DNA from: Lachnospiraceae bacterium
GTDB lineage: Bacteria > Bacillota > Clostridia > Lachnospirales > Lachnospiraceae
Direction of reading: 5' to 3'
DNA length: 64,000 nt
NCBI GenBank assembly: GCA_017521605.1
Contig: JAFXCD010000041.1
Coordinates: 1 to 64,000, forward strand
Below are positions 25,507 through 31,915 of this stretch, piece by piece. The translations under genes and the position numbers were made by a program. Position 1 is the first letter of the stretch, and the number at the start of each line of letters is the position of its first letter. Under the pieces are notes generated by a model, which saw only the letters and a list, made by a program, of their open reading frames with translations, was not told the origin of the DNA and ran no database searches.

Positions 25507-25710
25507 TGTAAGTGGAAACAGACATCCGATTTCTTCTTAAGATAGTTGATAATTACTATGGAAGAGGTTGGATGTCTTTGCTATAATGAAGGCATAATGT
25601 GATTACTTTGTTTATAGGAGTTATTGGTTCCAATGAGGAAGCTGATGTTGCCAAGTGGCTTGAGAAGCATTTTGAAGAATAAGAATGAAGTGATACAGAG
25701 GTGAATTTGG
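25507..25710. other. Intergenic region with hairpin and a possible tiny ORF
   Basis: An AGACATCC / GGATGTCT inverted repeat (about 25520-25578) is a plausible weak terminator for GH127. A 27-codon frame from GTG 25599 to TAA 25682 ends in ADVAKWLEKHFEE, a protein-like helix, and may be a degraded remnant or a real small peptide. Nothing else is supported here. Confidence 0.25.
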
Positions 25711-26433: not shown

Positions 26434-26553
26434 ATGGATCAAATCAAAATCGGAAGCTTTATTAAGGAATTAAGAAAGGAACAAAACCTTACCCAGGAAG
26501 AACTGGCAGAAAAGTTTGGCGTAGCCAGAAGAACTGTGTCCAAGTGGGAATGA
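26434..26553 (+). pseudogene. XRE-family regulator, 5' part (interrupted by mobile element)
   Basis: AGGAGG and ATG 26434 start a classic HTH_3 domain: GSFIKELRKEQNLTQEELA, then KFGVARRTVSKWE. The frame stops at TGA 26551-26553, the first codon supplied by the inserted element, leaving 39 residues that end in the middle of the DNA-binding domain. The rest of the gene is found at 31526-31915 and joins exactly as KWE-TGSNMPDLD. A 39-residue peptide might be made but would lack the last helices of the domain. Confidence 0.92.
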
Positions 26554-26587
26554 GTAAAACATAAATTGCATATTTTAAAAATGCCGA

Positions 26588-26610
26588 GAACCCTTGAAAA
26601 CAAAGGGTTC
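26588..26610. repeat. Inverted repeat just inside the left end
   Basis: GAACCCTT (26588-26595) and AAGGGTTC (26603-26610) form a perfect 8-bp stem followed by a T-rich stretch. It could stop transcription entering from the host gene or be part of the attachment region. Confidence 0.55.
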
Positions 26611-26639
26611 TTTACTTTTCTAAAAAATTGATTTATAAT
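26611..26639 (+). promoter_or_regulatory. Possible integrase promoter
   Basis: TTTACT (26611-26616), a 17-base spacer, then TATAAT (26634-26639). It sits between the left-end hairpin and the arm-like repeats, about 85 bases before the integrase start. Confidence 0.4.
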
Positions 26640-26665
26640 GGTTGATGAATAAAAAAGGCTATGAC

Positions 26666-26689
26666 AAGCCACTTTTAGAAGCCACTTTT
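26666..26689 (+). repeat. Left pair of integrase-arm-like direct repeats
   Basis: AAGCCACTTTT occurs at 26666-26676 and 26679-26689, spaced 13 bases start to start. The same motif, with the same 13-base spacing, recurs near the right end. Paired repeats at both ends are what the N-terminal arm domain of Tn916/lambda-type integrases binds. Confidence 0.65.
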
Positions 26690-26722
26690 TTAGTAAATTT
26701 TTTAGAAATGGGGGATTTTTAA

Positions 26723-27991
26723 ATGGGAAAAACTAGCAACGGAAATGGATATTGTGAGAAGTTGGACAATGGAAAATGGAAATGCGTGGTGTCGGTTATC
26801 ATTGACAACAAACGCAAGCGATTTTCTGCAACTAGCACACGCAAGAAAGATGCAGAAGCAGAAGCACAAAAAAAGGCTGAGTTATATAGAAAATCTATTT
26901 TAATAAATAAATCTGACCCAAAGTCTGAATTGAAAAAGACATTTAAAATGTCTTTCTTGGAATTTTGGGAAGATTACAAAATCACTCGGTCTTTATCATC
27001 TACAACAATATACAATTATGAAAAATTGATTTATAGTTCATTATTTAGTTGTGTTGATAATTTAGATATGCCACTCCATAAAATTGATATATCATTTTAT
27101 AATGATATTATAAAAGTGATAAATGAAAAGTATAAATATACTGTTGGAAAACGTCTTAGAAACTTCTTGAAAGGTCATTATAAATATCTAGTTAAAAACA
27201 GTATATTTATGTATGACCTATGGGACAATGTAAATCCTGTTATTGTAAATAAACAAAAACAGGAATTTACAATTGATAACATAGCAGAAGTAGAGGATAA
27301 ATGCGAAATCTTCGCAGAAGATGAAATTTTAAAAATCAAAGCTGAAGTTTATACACTTGCAGATGTAAATGGTATGTGTGAATATGATAAAAATAGATAT
27401 TTAGCATATAAGCAAGATTGTAAAATGTTTTATTTAATGTTCCTTTTGGGTGTTCGTGGTGGGGAACTCAAAGCCTTAACAATCAATGATATTGATTTTA
27501 CTAATAAAACATTAAAAATAAGCAAGGCTCTTGCACTTCACAAGAACGCACAAGGAAAAACCGAAACAATTGTTAAACCACCAAAAACCAAACATTCTAA
27601 TAGATTGATTGGTTTGAATAATGAAGAATTAACACTCTTTAAAGAATTAATTGATAGTAGAATCAATAAAGATAATGTGATTATTTTTCAAGGTAAAAAT
27701 GGTTATTTGTCTAGTGATGACTTCAAGTTTAGATTTTTGCGAATGTTAAAAAATCTTGACATTGAAAAGGGATCAAGAAGTCCTCACTCATTTAGGCATT
27801 CATTCATTAGTTATAGTATTGACAATAATGTTATATCTCCATTAAAAAACAAATCAATTATATTTATATCAAAATATGTTGGACATGATAAACTCTCTAC
27901 AACACTAGACGTTTATACACATATTGCAAAGCATAAAATAACTGACATTGAAACAGATATTGCAAGCATTGACGAATTAGAATACAAATAG
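26723..27991 (+). CDS. int: Tyrosine integrase of the mobile element (Tn916/phage type)
   Basis: A 422-residue site-specific recombinase. Residues about 8-55 form a three-stranded arm-binding domain (GYCEKLDNGKWKCVVSV then a KRFSATSTRKKDAE helix), residues about 75-165 the core-binding domain, and the rest the catalytic domain. All catalytic residues are present: Arg245 in GVRGGEL, His355 and Arg358 in PHSFRHSF, His388 in VGHDK and Tyr398 in LDVYTH. It should insert and excise the element by strand exchange at the TGGGA core. It reads inward from the left end. GGGGG lies 8 bases before ATG 26723. No excisionase gene is recognisable. Confidence 0.93.
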   Translation: MGKTSNGNGYCEKLDNGKWKCVVSVIIDNKRKRFSATSTRKKDAEAEAQKKAELYRKSILINKSDPKSELKKTFKMSFLEFWEDYKITRSLSSTTIYNYEKLIYSSLFSCVDNLDMPLHKIDISFYNDIIKVINEKYKYTVGKRLRNFLKGHYKYLVKNSIFMYDLWDNVNPVIVNKQKQEFTIDNIAEVEDKCEIFAEDEILKIKAEVYTLADVNGMCEYDKNRYLAYKQDCKMFYLMFLLGVRGGELKALTINDIDFTNKTLKISKALALHKNAQGKTETIVKPPKTKHSNRLIGLNNEELTLFKELIDSRINKDNVIIFQGKNGYLSSDDFKFRFLRMLKNLDIEKGSRSPHSFRHSFISYSIDNNVISPLKNKSIIFISKYVGHDKLSTTLDVYTHIAKHKITDIETDIASIDELEYK

Positions 27992-28001
27992 CACCCCCCT
28001 T

Positions 28002-28058
28002 GCCAGCTTGCCAGCTGGCTTCCCCCTGGGAGGGGGTTGAACGAAGCCTGACGGCTTC
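28002..28058. repeat. Three adjacent GC-rich hairpins after the integrase
   Basis: In an otherwise AT-rich element, three hairpins stand in a row: GCCAGC/GCTGGC (28002-28019), CCCCCT/AGGGGG (28022-28036) and GAAGCC/GGCTTC (28043-28058). They may terminate the integrase transcript or be a mobile palindromic repeat; the GC-rich character suggests separate origin. Confidence 0.5.
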
Positions 28059-28067
28059 AATTATCTT

Positions 28068-28401
28068 TTATCCACGTATTACTTTATGAATGGGATTTTG
28101 TTGGGTTGTTTGGTTTTGGGTGTCGGATAATTTTTTTGAAAAAACCCAACAAAATCAATGCCTAGCAGATAGTGAAATTGGTTTTTTTCGATAATCAATC
28201 ATTAATAAATCAATAAGATTATCTATTTATACAAGGACATTGGCTCTATGGTAATGATGGAGGTAAAATCAATTTTTGACGTTATAGCTCATGTGATATT
28301 TGAAGAAGTATATAAATATAAACAACTTGGGTTTTGCGATTGATAGAAATAGGGTTTTACTACTCTCCCCCTCTACAATTATCCATTCATGAAGTAATAC
28401 G
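28068..28401. repeat. Nested inverted repeats upstream of the iteron origin
   Basis: An outer pair of inverted arms, 28075-28093 and 28383-28401, match at all but one position and enclose about 290 bases. An inner perfect 14-bp pair, GATTTTGTTGGGTT (28094-28107) and AACCCAACAAAATC (28143-28156), has a 35-base loop. A DnaA-box-like TTATCCACG lies at 28068-28076. No convincing gene is present in 27992-28701. This region could belong to the replication origin or be a transfer origin; I cannot decide from sequence alone. Confidence 0.5.
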
Positions 28402-28485
28402 AGGGTTGCTTCGTGTATAATAAAACTATATTATTCCATAATAAAAAAGTATAATAGAAGAATATAATACAGAATTTTATAAAAA

Positions 28486-28525
28486 GCTGGGAGGTCTAGT
28501 ATTTGCTGGACTTCCCAGCCTTTTT
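28486..28525 (+). terminator. Rho-independent terminator before the iterons
   Basis: GCTGGGAGGTC (28486-28496) pairs with GACTTCCCAGC (28509-28519) with one mismatch, followed by TTTTT at 28521-28525. It insulates the origin from upstream transcription. Confidence 0.8.
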
Positions 28526-28538
28526 ATTTTGAGATAGG

Positions 28539-28620
28539 AAACCTGACGTTAGTAATACAAAACCTGACGTTAGTAATACAAAACCTGACGTTAGTAAAAT
28601 AGGAAACCTGATGTTAGCAA
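28539..28620 (+). repeat. Iteron array (plasmid-type replication origin)
   Basis: The 17-base unit AAACCTGACGTTAGTAA occurs three times without change at 28539-28555, 28560-28576 and 28581-28597 (21-base period, two helical turns), and a fourth time with two changes at 28604-28620. It lies about 80 bases upstream of a Rep_3 initiator, the standard arrangement of theta-replicating iteron plasmids in which Rep binds the iterons to open the origin and control copy number. Confidence 0.9.
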
Positions 28621-28701
28621 ACTTTTTATTTGATTTTTCCATTTATTTTGGTTTTGTATCTGTCATATTGACTACAAGAAACAAAAAAGGAGGCTGATAA
28701 T

Positions 28702-29454
28702 ATGACAAAAGAATTAATTACACATGGAAATTTAATAATTGCTGAAAGTAGAGAGTTTGTTTGTATGCCTAACAATCTCAACGAAAAAGAATTACATTTA
28801 TTATTGTTATTAGTTGCACAAATAAAACCAAATGATAAAGAGCTTGGCTGGGTGTCAATGTCTTACGATACACTAATTGAACGATATAACAGAAGTAATA
28901 AATATGGTGTAAATTCTATTAAATCAATGAAAAATGCTATATATAAACTTGCTGAGAAATTGTGGAAAAATGAAAAGGGGGATTTCTGCCACTATCTCGA
29001 TAAAGGCAAATTTGATGATGTAAATAGAATTGCAAAATTAAAATTATCCGATGAAACTATCTTCTTTTTCTTGGAGTATGAGAATGGTGTATTTTCAAAA
29101 TATGCATACATAAAACAATTACGAACAAAATGTGCAATTCAATTATATAGATGGGCTAATGCTAACAAAAATTTTAATAATGCAATTCCTATTAAAATTG
29201 ATGATGCAATTATGAAATTTTATGATAGTGAGAAAGAAATAACAGCTAATCATTTTTTTAATAAACATTTAGAGCCAGCTATTTCAAAAATAAATGATTT
29301 AACTGATTTACATATTGAATATGAAAAAGTATATAGCAAAAATGACAGACGCAAAATTTCATCATTGAAATTTACAATTAAAAAATATGAGGATTGTATG
29401 ATTGAGGATTTTGAGGATTGTGAAATTGATTATGATTTTTTTGATGATTTATAA
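28702..29454 (+). CDS. rep: Rep_3 family replication initiator (RepB-like)
   Basis: A 250-residue plasmid replication initiator with two winged-helix domains. Recognised from LNEKELHLLLLLVAQIKPND at the start, the SYDTLIERYNRSN segment, and the second domain with FSKYAYIKQLRTKCAIQLYRWANA followed by HFFNKHLEPAISKINDLTDLHIEYE. Such proteins bind iterons and load the host helicase. The four iterons just upstream match this role. The C-terminal 20 residues are strongly acidic. AAAAGGAGG precedes the ATG. An initiator of this type inside a chromosome points to an integrated plasmid rather than a transposon. Confidence 0.9.
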   Translation: MTKELITHGNLIIAESREFVCMPNNLNEKELHLLLLLVAQIKPNDKELGWVSMSYDTLIERYNRSNKYGVNSIKSMKNAIYKLAEKLWKNEKGDFCHYLDKGKFDDVNRIAKLKLSDETIFFFLEYENGVFSKYAYIKQLRTKCAIQLYRWANANKNFNNAIPIKIDDAIMKFYDSEKEITANHFFNKHLEPAISKINDLTDLHIEYEKVYSKNDRRKISSLKFTIKKYEDCMIEDFEDCEIDYDFFDDL

Positions 29455-29469
29455 AAGGAGGTTGATATT

Positions 29470-29784
29470 ATGACAAAAGAAGAAAGACTATTTAAAAAAT
29501 TTATGAAAGGAACTGCAACTGATGAAGAATGTGAATTTTTAGCAAGTAAGGGTTATATAAAAAGAACTGATGATTTAATTAAAAAAGTAAAATCATTAAG
29601 TGATGATGAATTACTAGAAGAATTAGATAATTTGAATTGTATTCTTTTTGAATTATTATGTTTTGAAGATACTGAAAAAACTGAATTTGAAAGAAATGCT
29701 GAATTATCATCTGCAAGATTACAATATCAAATAACCCACAGAGAAGCATGGTTGCGAGATTTATTAGATGATGATGATGATTAA
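29470..29784 (+). CDS. Acidic hypothetical protein in the rep operon
   Basis: A 104-residue protein, very rich in Glu, Asp and Lys, mostly helical, ending in a run of aspartates (LLDDDDD). I recognise no family. It starts 16 bases after rep with AAAGGAGG upstream, so it is co-transcribed and probably serves the plasmid part (copy control, partition or mobilisation). The middle segment SDDELLEELDNLNCILFELL looks like an amphipathic helix suited to oligomerisation. A DNA mimic is possible from the acidic composition, but that is speculation. Confidence 0.7.
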   Translation: MTKEERLFKKFMKGTATDEECEFLASKGYIKRTDDLIKKVKSLSDDELLEELDNLNCILFELLCFEDTEKTEFERNAELSSARLQYQITHREAWLRDLLDDDDD

Positions 29785-29821
29785 AACAACTGAAAAAGCA
29801 ATTTTTTAAAATTGATTTTGA

Positions 29822-29879
29822 TGGCGTTAGACTGGGAATTTAATGCGTAAGCATTAAAGGCGTGTAGCGCCATTTTTTT
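29822..29879 (+). terminator. Two-tiered hairpin terminator of the rep operon
   Basis: Outer arms TGGCGTTA (29822-29829) and TAGCGCCA (29865-29872) enclose a perfect inner hairpin, TTTAATGC (29839-29846) with GCATTAAA (29851-29858); seven T follow at 29873-29879. Confidence 0.7.
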
Positions 29880-30154
29880 GTGCAAGTGTTCGGATACTCA
29901 CGCAATCTCAAAAATTGATTTTTAGAATCATGAGCAAATACAAGGGGTTGCAGAGTTGATATATAAATGATGATGACAAAAAAATTATACTTTTATAAAA
30001 ATTGATTTTTATAATTACATAAATTTCTATATCGGTTTATATGACTTTTTGGTCATATAAACGGATATGTGCAAAAATTGCAAGTTATCTGTTTAAAATG
30101 AATGACATAATATTTATATGATTTATAAATATTACGAAAGGAGGAGTGGTTGAT
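29880..30154. other. AT-rich non-coding stretch with palindrome
   Basis: Contains a perfect 11-bp hairpin, GTTTATATGAC (30035-30045) with GTCATATAAAC (30052-30062), and two near-identical copies of AAAAATTGATTTTT (about 29911 and 29997); similar copies lie near 26622, 28267 and 29807. No gene is supported. Confidence 0.45.
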
Positions 30155-30280
30155 ATGAATAGTAAAATATCATTTTTAATTGGTGGCGACAATTTAAAAC
30201 GCCGTATATTTAATACCACGAATATACATTATATTGTTTTGGTGAGGACAATTAAAACAAACTGTAATTTACGACGTTAG
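30155..30280 (+). CDS. Possible 41-residue basic peptide
   Basis: AAAGGAGGAG lies 7-8 bases before ATG 30155, a very strong ribosome binding site, and the frame runs 41 codons to TAG 30278. The peptide is basic (Lys and Arg rich, ending CNLRR) with a hydrophobic middle (HYIVLVRTI). It resembles nothing I know. It could be an excisionase-like or regulatory peptide for the recombinase downstream, given size and charge, but no helix-turn-helix is evident. The iteron-like site at 30273-30283 overlaps its stop codon. Confidence 0.4.
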   Translation: MNSKISFLIGGDNLKRRIFNTTNIHYIVLVRTIKTNCNLRR

Positions 30281-30283
30281 TAA
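30273..30283 (+). promoter_or_regulatory. Isolated iteron half-site upstream of the second recombinase
   Basis: GACGTTAGTAA is identical to the last 11 bases of the iteron unit, and lies about 90 bases before the second recombinase gene. If the initiator binds here it could tie recombinase expression to replication; chance is also possible. Confidence 0.35.
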
Positions 30284-30372
30284 ATTTTAACACTTTGCTC
30301 AATTTTTGAGCGGTCAATGCTACAAAGTAGTAAATCTTAACTATGGATAAATTTTTTAAAGGGGGAGTGATA

Positions 30373-31260
30373 ATGGCTAATAGAACACGAAAAAAGGAAT
30401 TTCAAAAATCATTACATCAACAATTATATGATGTTTTGACTCAAAAATTTAATGATGGATTTGGTCAATCACGACATGAACACAAAAAGGCTGGAACTGA
30501 CGGAAATTATATATTTTCTAAAAAAACATATCAAACATATATGAACGAATGCGATAAATTTGCGAAATGGTGCAAATCTAATTATAAATGTACTAATTTA
30601 CGACAATGCAAAAAACATATATGCGATTATTTACAATTTATGATTAATGACGAACGCTCGGCATGGAGTATTTCTACTGCTGCGAGTGGAATCTGTAAAT
30701 TGTATGGAATTAAAACAACTGATTTAAAAATTGATTTACCAACTAGAAACCGAGCAGACATTAAACGCTCACGCTTGGAAGTTGAAAAGGATAAACATAT
30801 TAGCGAGGAAACATATAATTATTGGCATAATATTAATATTTGTATGGGATTGCGTAAAAGTGAATTAAAAGCAATAAGAGGCACTGATTTAATATTAAAA
30901 AATGGTTGTTATTGGGTAAATGTAAGACGAGGAAAAGGTGGTAAAAGCAGATTGGTAAAAGTTATTGCAACACCTCAACAAATGGCAAATATTAAAACTT
31001 TGTTTCATAATGCACAAAATGGATATGTATTTAATAATATACCGAATGCATTGGATAACCACCACATCCGAGCAGAATATGCCAGCAGATATTATAAATT
31101 AATTGCTCGTGATGTTGAAGATATACCAAAAGAGCAAAAATACATTTGTAGAAAAGACAAGCGAGGCACAATTTACGACAAAGAGGCAATGTTGGAAGTA
31201 TCGCAAGCACTAGGACATAACAGAATTGATATAATTGCATATAATTACTTATATATTTAA
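30373..31260 (+). CDS. Second tyrosine recombinase of the element
   Basis: A 295-residue tyrosine recombinase without the arm domain of the first integrase. The N-terminal core-binding domain (about 40-115) is followed by a catalytic domain with Arg161 in GLRKSELKA, a Lys in RGKGGKSR, His230/Arg233 in HHIR, His282 in ALGHN and the presumed nucleophile Tyr292. The protein ends only three residues after that tyrosine, so the usual C-terminal helix is missing. ATG 30373 has GGGGGAG upstream. Its small size and position near paired palindromes suggest a dimer-resolving or inversion enzyme of the plasmid, as opposed to the integrase; not proven. Confidence 0.82.
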   Translation: MANRTRKKEFQKSLHQQLYDVLTQKFNDGFGQSRHEHKKAGTDGNYIFSKKTYQTYMNECDKFAKWCKSNYKCTNLRQCKKHICDYLQFMINDERSAWSISTAASGICKLYGIKTTDLKIDLPTRNRADIKRSRLEVEKDKHISEETYNYWHNINICMGLRKSELKAIRGTDLILKNGCYWVNVRRGKGGKSRLVKVIATPQQMANIKTLFHNAQNGYVFNNIPNALDNHHIRAEYASRYYKLIARDVEDIPKEQKYICRKDKRGTIYDKEAMLEVSQALGHNRIDIIAYNYLYI

Positions 31261-31277
31261 TAATTTTGTTTTTATAT

Positions 31278-31326
31278 ACTATATATAGTGGTTGAAACCA
31301 CATGATTCAGAACTATATATAGTGGT
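31278..31326. repeat. Paired palindromic repeats after the second recombinase
   Basis: ACTATATATAGTGGT occurs at 31278-31292 and 31312-31326, 34 bases apart; its first 12 bases are a perfect palindrome. GTGGTTGAAACCAC between them is another small hairpin. Candidate binding or crossover sites for the adjacent recombinase. Confidence 0.5.
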
Positions 31327-31434
31327 ATCTGTGGCTGGGGCTTTTTAGAATTTCATTTACATATAAATAGTAATATTGTATAATAAAAAAGCTACAAAAT
31401 GCGTTTTAAAACAGATATTTAAAAAAATCAATAA

Positions 31435-31472
31435 AAGCCACTTATAAAAGCCACTTTCTACAAGTGGCTTTT
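31435..31472. repeat. Right pair of integrase-arm-like repeats plus inverted copy
   Basis: AAGCCACTT occurs at 31435-31443 and 31448-31456, again 13 bases apart as at the left end. An inverted copy, AAGTGGCTTTT (31462-31472), makes a perfect 11-bp hairpin with 31446-31456. These lie 48-85 bases from the right core. Confidence 0.65.
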
Positions 31473-31519
31473 AAAAATCCTTGTAAAATCAAGGTTTTAA
31501 GCCTTTCAACTGTTTCAGA

Positions 31520-31915
31520 TGGGAGACCGGCAGTAATATGCCGGACTTGGATATTCTGATAGAGATGGCAGATTTCTATGATGTGGATCTTAGGGAAATC
31601 TTAGACGGAGAAAGGAAAAGTGAGAAAATGAATGAAGAATTAAAGGAAACTGTATTAAAGGTTGCAGAGTACAGCAATGAGGAGAAAAAGAGGAATTCAA
31701 GACTGGTACTTGCGTACTTTGTGCTGGGAATTATAGCATTGATTGTAAATTTGGCTATGAACTTTATGGAATTGGAAGAAACCTTTTGGGTGGGATTTTT
31801 AGAAGGAAGTACCGGCGGCATAGCTCTGGCTGCCATGATTATGGGTATTCTTTTCGTTACAGGAACCCTCAACAAAATCTGTGCATTTAAGAAGAGATTG
31901 CTTGGGAAGGAGTAA
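31520..31915 (+). pseudogene. XRE-family regulator, 3' part with membrane segments
   Basis: Continues the frame of 26434-26550: W-E-TGSNMPDLDILIEMADFYDVDLREILDGER completes the HTH domain, followed by a linker and two membrane segments (about LVLAYFVLGIIALIVNLAM and GGIALAAMIMGILFVTG). Rejoined, the protein would have 168 residues, a membrane-tethered XRE regulator of a kind common in Clostridia. An ATG at 31538 could give a 125-residue product lacking the first DNA-binding helices; GGAG lies 12 bases upstream, so some expression is possible. The next gene is a small membrane protein. Confidence 0.9.

Follow-up and report, generated by a model that had tools for sequence, protein, structure and literature searches.

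Organization and boundaries of the element

In the first 64,000 nucleotides (forward strand) of contig JAFXCD010000041.1 from a Lachnospiraceae bacterium (assembly GCA_017521605.1), the whole stretch of DNA analysed here and called the window below, a putative integrated plasmid of 4,975 bp (26550-31524) was located between two copies of TGGGA, inside the gene of an XRE-type regulator. It carried genes for a tyrosine integrase (P0002), a Rep_3 initiator (P0001, Rep), a small protein (P0003) and a second tyrosine recombinase (P0004, of the xer2 family), together with iterons and arm-like sites (Table 1); these four genes were the only open reading frames (ORFs) of at least 100 amino acids (aa) inside the element, and all were open. 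An earlier reading of the same DNA (the original prediction) had set the boundaries at the TGGGA copies of 26545-26549 and 31520-31524, which proved exact to the base.

When the sequence ending at 26549 was joined in silico to the sequence starting at 31525, a continuous XRE ORF of 168 aa was obtained. The uninterrupted site was present in a sister species of the same genus (G078:C29): nucleotides 1-493 of the 507-nt joined query were matched at 84%, with 358 of 402 positions identical and one gap around the junction, and the joined 13-kb flanks were collinear with this genome (76-84% identity). The original prediction was to be abandoned if no genome showed the empty site; G078:C29 has it, with synteny over about 13 kb. 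The joined gene had some match in 38 of the 81 genus genomes examined (the window's own genome counted); the matches other than G078:C29 were shorter and weaker and resembled paralogous regulators, so the evidence for the empty site comes from one genome. The GC content was 28.8% in the element vs. 39.8% and 42.0% in its flanks, where none of 100 windows of the element's size fell below 36%. An integrase of its own and exact integration boundaries were therefore both found, in the form of the PF00589 match described below, arm-like sites at both ends, the TGGGA repeats and the G078 site.

Table 1. Features of the element and of the interrupted gene, with positions in the window (a point in the strand column stands for no single strand)
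Feature	Position	Strand	Basis
XRE-family regulator gene, part 5' of the insertion (MDQIKIGSFIKELRKEQNLTQEELAEKFGVARRTVSKWE...)	26434..26549	+	Joined ORF, G078 comparison
Left core repeat TGGGA (left junction)	26545..26549	.	Sequence repeat, joined ORF
Left arm-like sites, AAGCCACTT twice, starts 13 bp apart	26666..26687	+	Repeat scan
Integrase P0002, 422 aa, tyrosine recombinase	26723..27991	+	PF00589, nearest solved chains, catalytic residues
Strongly folding non-coding region, closed by an inverted repeat of 22 nt (91% complementary)	28074..28403	.	Fold, repeat and Rfam scans
Terminator-like hairpin directly before the iterons	28480..28530	.	Folding z -5.65
Four iterons, putative theta origin	28534..28620	+	Repeat scan; four copies of 22 nt, spacing 21, 21 and 23 nt
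Rep_3 initiator P0001, 250 aa, WH1 and WH2 domains	28702..29454	+	Pfam, Foldseek
Small ORF P0003, 104 aa, no significant family	29470..29784	+	Profile searches
Possible leader ORF, 42-44 aa, with ribosome-binding site	30146..30283	+	By eye
Extra iteron core GACGTTAGTAA, upstream of the second recombinase	30273..30283	+	Exact core scan
Second tyrosine recombinase xer2, P0004, plasmid resolvase-like	30343..31260	+	Likely start 30373 by eye
Right arm-like sites, AAGCCACTT, two direct and one inverted	31435..31470	.	Repeat scan
Right core repeat TGGGA (right junction)	31520..31524	.	Sequence repeat, joined ORF
XRE regulator gene, part 3' of the insertion	31525..31915	+	Joined ORF, G078 comparison

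Integrase and arm-like sites

P0002 matched PF00589 at 60.3 bits (Pfam cut-off 27.1), and its nearest solved chains were 3nkh and the Int chains of 6emy, 6en0 and 6emz (E 1e-8 to 2e-6), which we take to be of the Tn916/Tn1549 type; the transposon-type integrase of the original prediction was supported by these matches, and P0002 is presumably Tn916-like. R245, H355, R358 and Y398 were fully conserved when P0002 was aligned with six other integrases, those paired with xer2 elsewhere, its identity to them being 18-25%. Among 196 relatives, no other genome had an Int match at E 1e-30. The structure model of P0002 (mean pLDDT 34.4) was confident only at residues ~11-57, which formed three strands and a helix, the fold of the arm-binding domain of Tn916 Int; the modelled N-terminal part would fit an arm-binding domain.

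Five copies of AAGCCACTT, counting either strand, lay no more than 150 bp from the element ends, two on the left and three on the right, and none in between, in agreement with the arm-like sites first proposed. The whole window contained six copies vs. 0.8 expected, a number reached in none of 100 shuffles (the sixth lay outside the element, at 25653), and in 20,000 single-base shuffles of the element not once did as many as two copies fall near the ends.

Plasmid core

Rep scored over the cut-offs for both of its domains (Rep3_N, 47.3 bits vs. 22.4; Rep3_C, 35.0 bits vs. 21.1) and started 81 nt after the last iteron. The combination expected of a Rep_3 theta plasmid, an initiator with iterons directly upstream, was therefore present, and the theta-type core of four iterons and a Rep_3 initiator in the original prediction stands. 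The first three iterons shared the exact core GACGTTAGTAA, from which the fourth differed at two positions. This core occurred four times in the 64 kb vs. 0.03 expected, the copy at 30273-30283 included; this extra copy, which had been overlooked before and lies some 60-90 bp in front of the gene for the second recombinase, is far beyond chance.

The single-sequence model of Rep was weak (mean pLDDT 50.4), with a moderately confident C-terminal part (residues ~141-230). Its Foldseek ranks 1-46 were RepE54/RepE, Pi or Rep complexes, or co-crystals from the same series without the protein named in the title; the best E value was 2.6e-3, and none was under 0.001. Judged by its sequence relatives, Rep is isolated: matches at E 1e-3 or better were found in 4 of the 196 related genomes (one of them the window's own, the rest at 22-28% identity) and in 8 plasmid records at 27-36% identity, while none of 17 pattern hits in GTDB genome contigs was confirmed and no relative was confirmed in viral contigs. 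A DnaA-box scan gave five hits with one mismatch vs. 3.4 expected, and was not informative.

Second tyrosine recombinase

P0004 remained below the PF00589 cut-off (21.4 vs. 27.1 bits) and far below the NCBIfam cut-offs for XerD (27.3 vs. 329.6 bits) and XerC (25.9 vs. 335.15 bits), and was accordingly not classed as a chromosome resolvase of the XerC/XerD type. R171, K198, H240, R243, H292 and Y302 were invariant in its family (15 sequences), so P0004 is probably active. Members of the family, with the window's own genome counted, were found in 8 of the 196 relatives at E 1e-10 and in 19 of 392 genomes of the order at E 1e-15, and no match was obtained in 50,697 phage records. All 24 matching records in PLSDB were typed as non-mobilizable, and the five records with P0004 relatives whose annotation was inspected had different initiators among them.

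The genomic setting of xer2 differed with contig size: an integrase lay within 6 kb in 11 of the 15 loci on contigs of at least 15 kb (window included; 7 tyrosine and 4 serine integrases) vs. 3 of the 34 on smaller ones, any of which can also be a piece of a chromosome (Fisher p 1.2e-5). Left out of this tally were the 21.8-kb plasmid L054, the identical copies L118, L119, L120 and L086, and recombinase ORFs of up to 200 aa. Exact terminal repeats of 71-141 nt, as in assembled circles, were present in 8 of 30 whole xer2 contigs (one contig being counted twice), repeats of 21-34 nt in 2, and none in the remaining 20. Since the family occurs mostly on small plasmids or plasmid-sized contigs without an integrase, P0004 is probably a plasmid resolvase; the second recombinase would most likely serve plasmid maintenance in this way, and the chromosomal xer2 copies would usually have been integrated through a separate integrase. 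In the original prediction this recombinase completed the element. It is indeed present and keeps its catalytic residues, but a partnership with the integrase is not evident, and is less likely given that 31 of the 34 small contigs had no integrase within 6 kb of xer2.

Other xer2 loci differed in what surrounded the recombinase. In two genomes of one genus (L123:3858-10806 and L089:6574-11612), an integrase and xer2 pair, 88% identical between them, adjoined a 6.1-kb flank that was 99% identical, with different cargo on the opposite side; in L123 this cargo was a reverse transcriptase that fits the DRT defence model RT_UG24. On two further large contigs, xer2 adjoined defence-like genes: HerA with DUF4297 and PDC-S73 (L091:62-5378), and MzaB/MzaC-like genes with a methyltransferase (L088:1984-6732). 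In the window's genus, a plasmid-sized contig of 9415 bp (G100:C86; L086, the same as L097) carried xer2 and an ORF that appeared ParA-like by eye.

Non-coding stretches and small ORFs

The foldable stretch between integrase and iterons (330 nt, folding z -3.8, with an inner hairpin) might correspond to a replication-control RNA or a single-strand origin; Rfam gave no match in the scan at gathering scores. When positions 27995-28500 were searched in 99 genomes, the stretch itself was recovered together with weak hits in four genomes, all at query positions 424-498, where the hairpin ahead of the iterons lies. The start region of P0003 resembled that of rep, and the stop of the leader-like ORF fell inside the extra iteron core. 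Profile searches of the four proteins recognised no relaxase family, and no packaging, capsid-hijacking or regulatory gene was seen among them, nor any conjugation module or excisionase (Xis) among the four ORFs of at least 100 aa. The absence of a relaxase and of recognisable cargo, noted at the outset, was upheld by the profile searches.

Related plasmids and apparent rarity of the pairing

The closest layout was that of pRGI00233 (HG796285.1), a circular 5.5-kb plasmid of an uncultured bacterium, which like the window has four iterons at 21-22 nt upstream of a Rep3_C gene, small ORFs and a recombinase related to P0004 (40% identity); unlike the window element, it is a free circle, has no integrase by profile and carries a Rep that is only distantly alike. 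Iteron-like repeats, Rep_3 and xer2 were also found together on a 4.2-kb contig (L122). An iteron copy upstream of the recombinase was seen neither there nor in pRGI00233, which differs from the window in this respect, and was not retained as a conserved trait of Rep_3/xer2 plasmids.

A second integrated unit was found in the window's genus (L087, in G120:C130): 5,693 bp between exact 23-nt att repeats, the left of which covers the 3' end of a tRNA-Arg(acg), with an integrase, a PF01719 rolling-circle Rep and a relative of xer2. Like the window element, it combines an integrase, a plasmid Rep and xer2 within one small unit (5.7 kb) bounded by att repeats; it differs in its rolling-circle Rep, its integrase and target, and its extra genes; we know of no name for it. 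In a further locus of the genus (L090), xer2 lay beside an integrase and a protein whose helicase match stayed below threshold. Small plasmids that have been integrated, with replicons and integrases that vary from one to the next, thus occur repeatedly in this group.

PF01051 had matches in 23 of 395 relatives and in 16 of 391 genomes of the class (overlapping draws, both including the window's own genome); nearly all of these places were inspected, G394:C235, G688 and G842 excepted. Among 48 loci with a Rep_3 profile match, counting the window and pRGI00233, only the window had a full-length integrase by profile. Two loci count against uniqueness. One is a 7.5-kb contig (L055, in G125:C71) with a Rep_3 gene and, as in the window, two tyrosine recombinases, of which the 320-aa protein passes PF00589 (45.3 bits) and is xer2-like by profile and the other has 191 aa; it differs in lacking a full-length integrase by profile and a terminal repeat, and may represent a related integrative plasmid or else a free plasmid. 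In the other (L078), Rep_3 is decayed and accompanied by a fragment of 145 aa. As a control, 109 of the 181 neighbour proteins (chosen by size, L152 left out) were compared with Pfam, and three matched PF00589, only L055:1720-2679 by name; one further match, weak or strong, cannot be placed. In the 37 genomes holding these loci, PF00589 was found within 6 kb of Rep_3 only in G125:C71 (L055) and G143:C26 (L078) among the matches listed, which reach down to E ~1e-24, a level that the window's own Int does not attain. These profile counts support, and do not prove, the rarity of an integrase with Rep_3. The rarity that the original prediction gave to the pairing is supported by the single full-length integrase among 48 Rep_3 loci, but the union of integrase and initiator is itself already known (SGI1, BcenGI2, pCRESS), while the literature, judged by titles and abstract openings, gave no relaxase-free integrase and Rep_3 element of this size.

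Interpretation and alternative explanations

From its sequence, the element appears as a small Rep_3/iteron plasmid of the pRGI00233 layout, bounded by arm-like sites and core repeats, and a minimal integrative theta plasmid would be its best explanation (probability of roughly three in four); within the group it is best read as one of several putative modular integrated plasmids. The original observation as a whole was confirmed by the boundaries, the restored ORF, the empty site, the profile matches, the arms and the iterons, and its interpretation was supported in part, for the integrated plasmid, the transposon-type integrase, the iteron origin and the lack of a relaxase and of recognisable cargo; the second recombinase is likelier a resolvase, and the switch to a circle and its replication, free or in place, are predictions. 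In the proposed cycle, the N-terminal domain of P0002 would bind the arm sites, and the integrase would recombine attP (right end joined to left end) with an attB containing TGGGA; the excised circle would replicate through the binding of Rep to the iterons and be held monomeric by the second recombinase, whereas the integrated form would be inherited passively. Since there is no recognisable relaxase, spread would need transformation, transduction or help in trans.

Several observations weigh against this integrative plasmid and its resolvase. Neither a free circular copy nor a close relative of the element turned up in the collections searched. The element was present as a single copy in a draft genome of 3.8 Mb and 125 contigs, its DNA had no match among plasmids at distant sensitivity, and the predicted attP junction was found in none of the viral contigs, where single-protein queries confirmed no close relative of Rep, xer2 or Int (a small alignment, A2, used as query gave one xer2 locus, L117). 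No excisionase or Xis-like gene was recognised in the element, and Foldseek with the N-terminal model of P0002 retrieved two arm-binding domains below significance (3jtz, E 0.39). The xer2 tally contains near-duplicates on the small side (L106, L107, L108 and L110; L096 and L097 are 90-94% alike) and its larger contigs are not all independent (L089 is related to L123, and two genomes supplied L087/L092 and L089/L091); some of these loci had also served as seeds for the profiles. Finally, xer2 lies 140-426 bp from an integrase in L089, L123 and L130, where no Rep was recognised and both recombinases may have a joint role.

The missing Xis-like gene, the single copy and the lack of a free form in the collections searched would also suit a stranded relic, integrated once, unable to leave for want of an excisionase and with a silent Rep. 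We regard this as unlikely: the four ORFs of at least 100 aa are open, the recombinases keep their catalytic residues, and the junctions are sharp and the insertion absent from the sister species, so integration may be recent. Less probable still is an element resembling integrative and mobilizable elements (IMEs), moved by a helper through an oriT or through a Rep that serves as a mimic for the helper's relaxase. Rep_3 does occur in the IMEs SGI1 and BcenGI2 (PMC5704250), but profile searches of the four proteins found no relaxase and the related plasmid records are typed as non-mobilizable.

Nor do we give much weight to a nest of unrelated insertions, a small plasmid plus an integrase fragment of another element, which ranks slightly lower still. 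The low identity of P0002 to the integrases paired with xer2 elsewhere speaks for it, in that P0002 would have joined this plasmid separately; a single pair of core repeats, however, bounds the whole unit, the arms flank all of it, and the sister species has none of it. A phage satellite of the PICI type, which likewise may hold an integrase and its own replication in one small island, is very improbable here, as the four proteins include nothing recognised as capsid-hijacking, packaging or regulatory, P0004 is unmatched in the phage records and Rep has no confirmed relative in viral contigs.

A minimal integrative theta plasmid thus remains our preferred reading. As a tentative and rather doubtful extension of it, Rep bound at the extra iteron core might directly govern the resolvase, so that monomer resolution, and perhaps also whether the element stays circular or chromosomal, would be tied to copy number. 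More broadly, xer2 might characterise a modular class of small plasmids in which unrelated integrases are acquired time and again and free and integrated forms alternate, some of them picking up defence genes. With small integrative plasmids the distinction between plasmid and genomic island becomes blurred, and such elements readily escape notice: plasmid finders tend to pass over chromosomal contigs, and island finders tend to seek conjugation genes. If active, the element would be a very small theta-replicating integrative element and a natural starting point for vectors that integrate in Lachnospiraceae, and the silencing of an iteron origin inside a chromosome would become testable.

Comparison with known systems

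An integrase together with a Rep_3 initiator is reported for SGI1 and BcenGI2, both IMEs (PMC5704250). SGI1 replicates after excision and has an initiator with four iteron-like repeats (PMC7826253); the same paper describes the protein as RepA_C-containing by its own Pfam result. It is thus like the window in its tyrosine integrase, its initiator annotated as Rep_3 and its four iteron-like repeats (PMC7826253, PMC5704250), and unlike it in being 42 kb long, mobilizable, loaded with resistance cargo and dependent on an IncA/C helper for excision. The pCRESS plasmids are described as having their own Rep and being integrated site-specifically in bacterial chromosomes, and 97.5% of the Reps in groups besides pCRESS7 and 9 are stated to sit in integrated elements (PMC6668415). 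Their Rep is of the CRESS type, with nuclease and helicase domains, whereas the window has a Rep_3/iteron theta system.

Tn916 and ICEBs1 probably share an integrase of the same broad kind with the window element, but are larger, conjugative and replicated by a relaxase-initiated rolling circle. Their plasmid-like replication follows excision (PMC5704250). CTn214 of Bacteroides fragilis is likewise integrated and amplifies in part as an autonomous circle; it differs as a 55-kb conjugative transposon of which a 17-kb part amplifies (PMC10865816). The association of an integrase with a replication initiator is therefore already known, and what is unusual in the window is an element that is tiny (~5 kb), of the theta type and without a recognisable relaxase.

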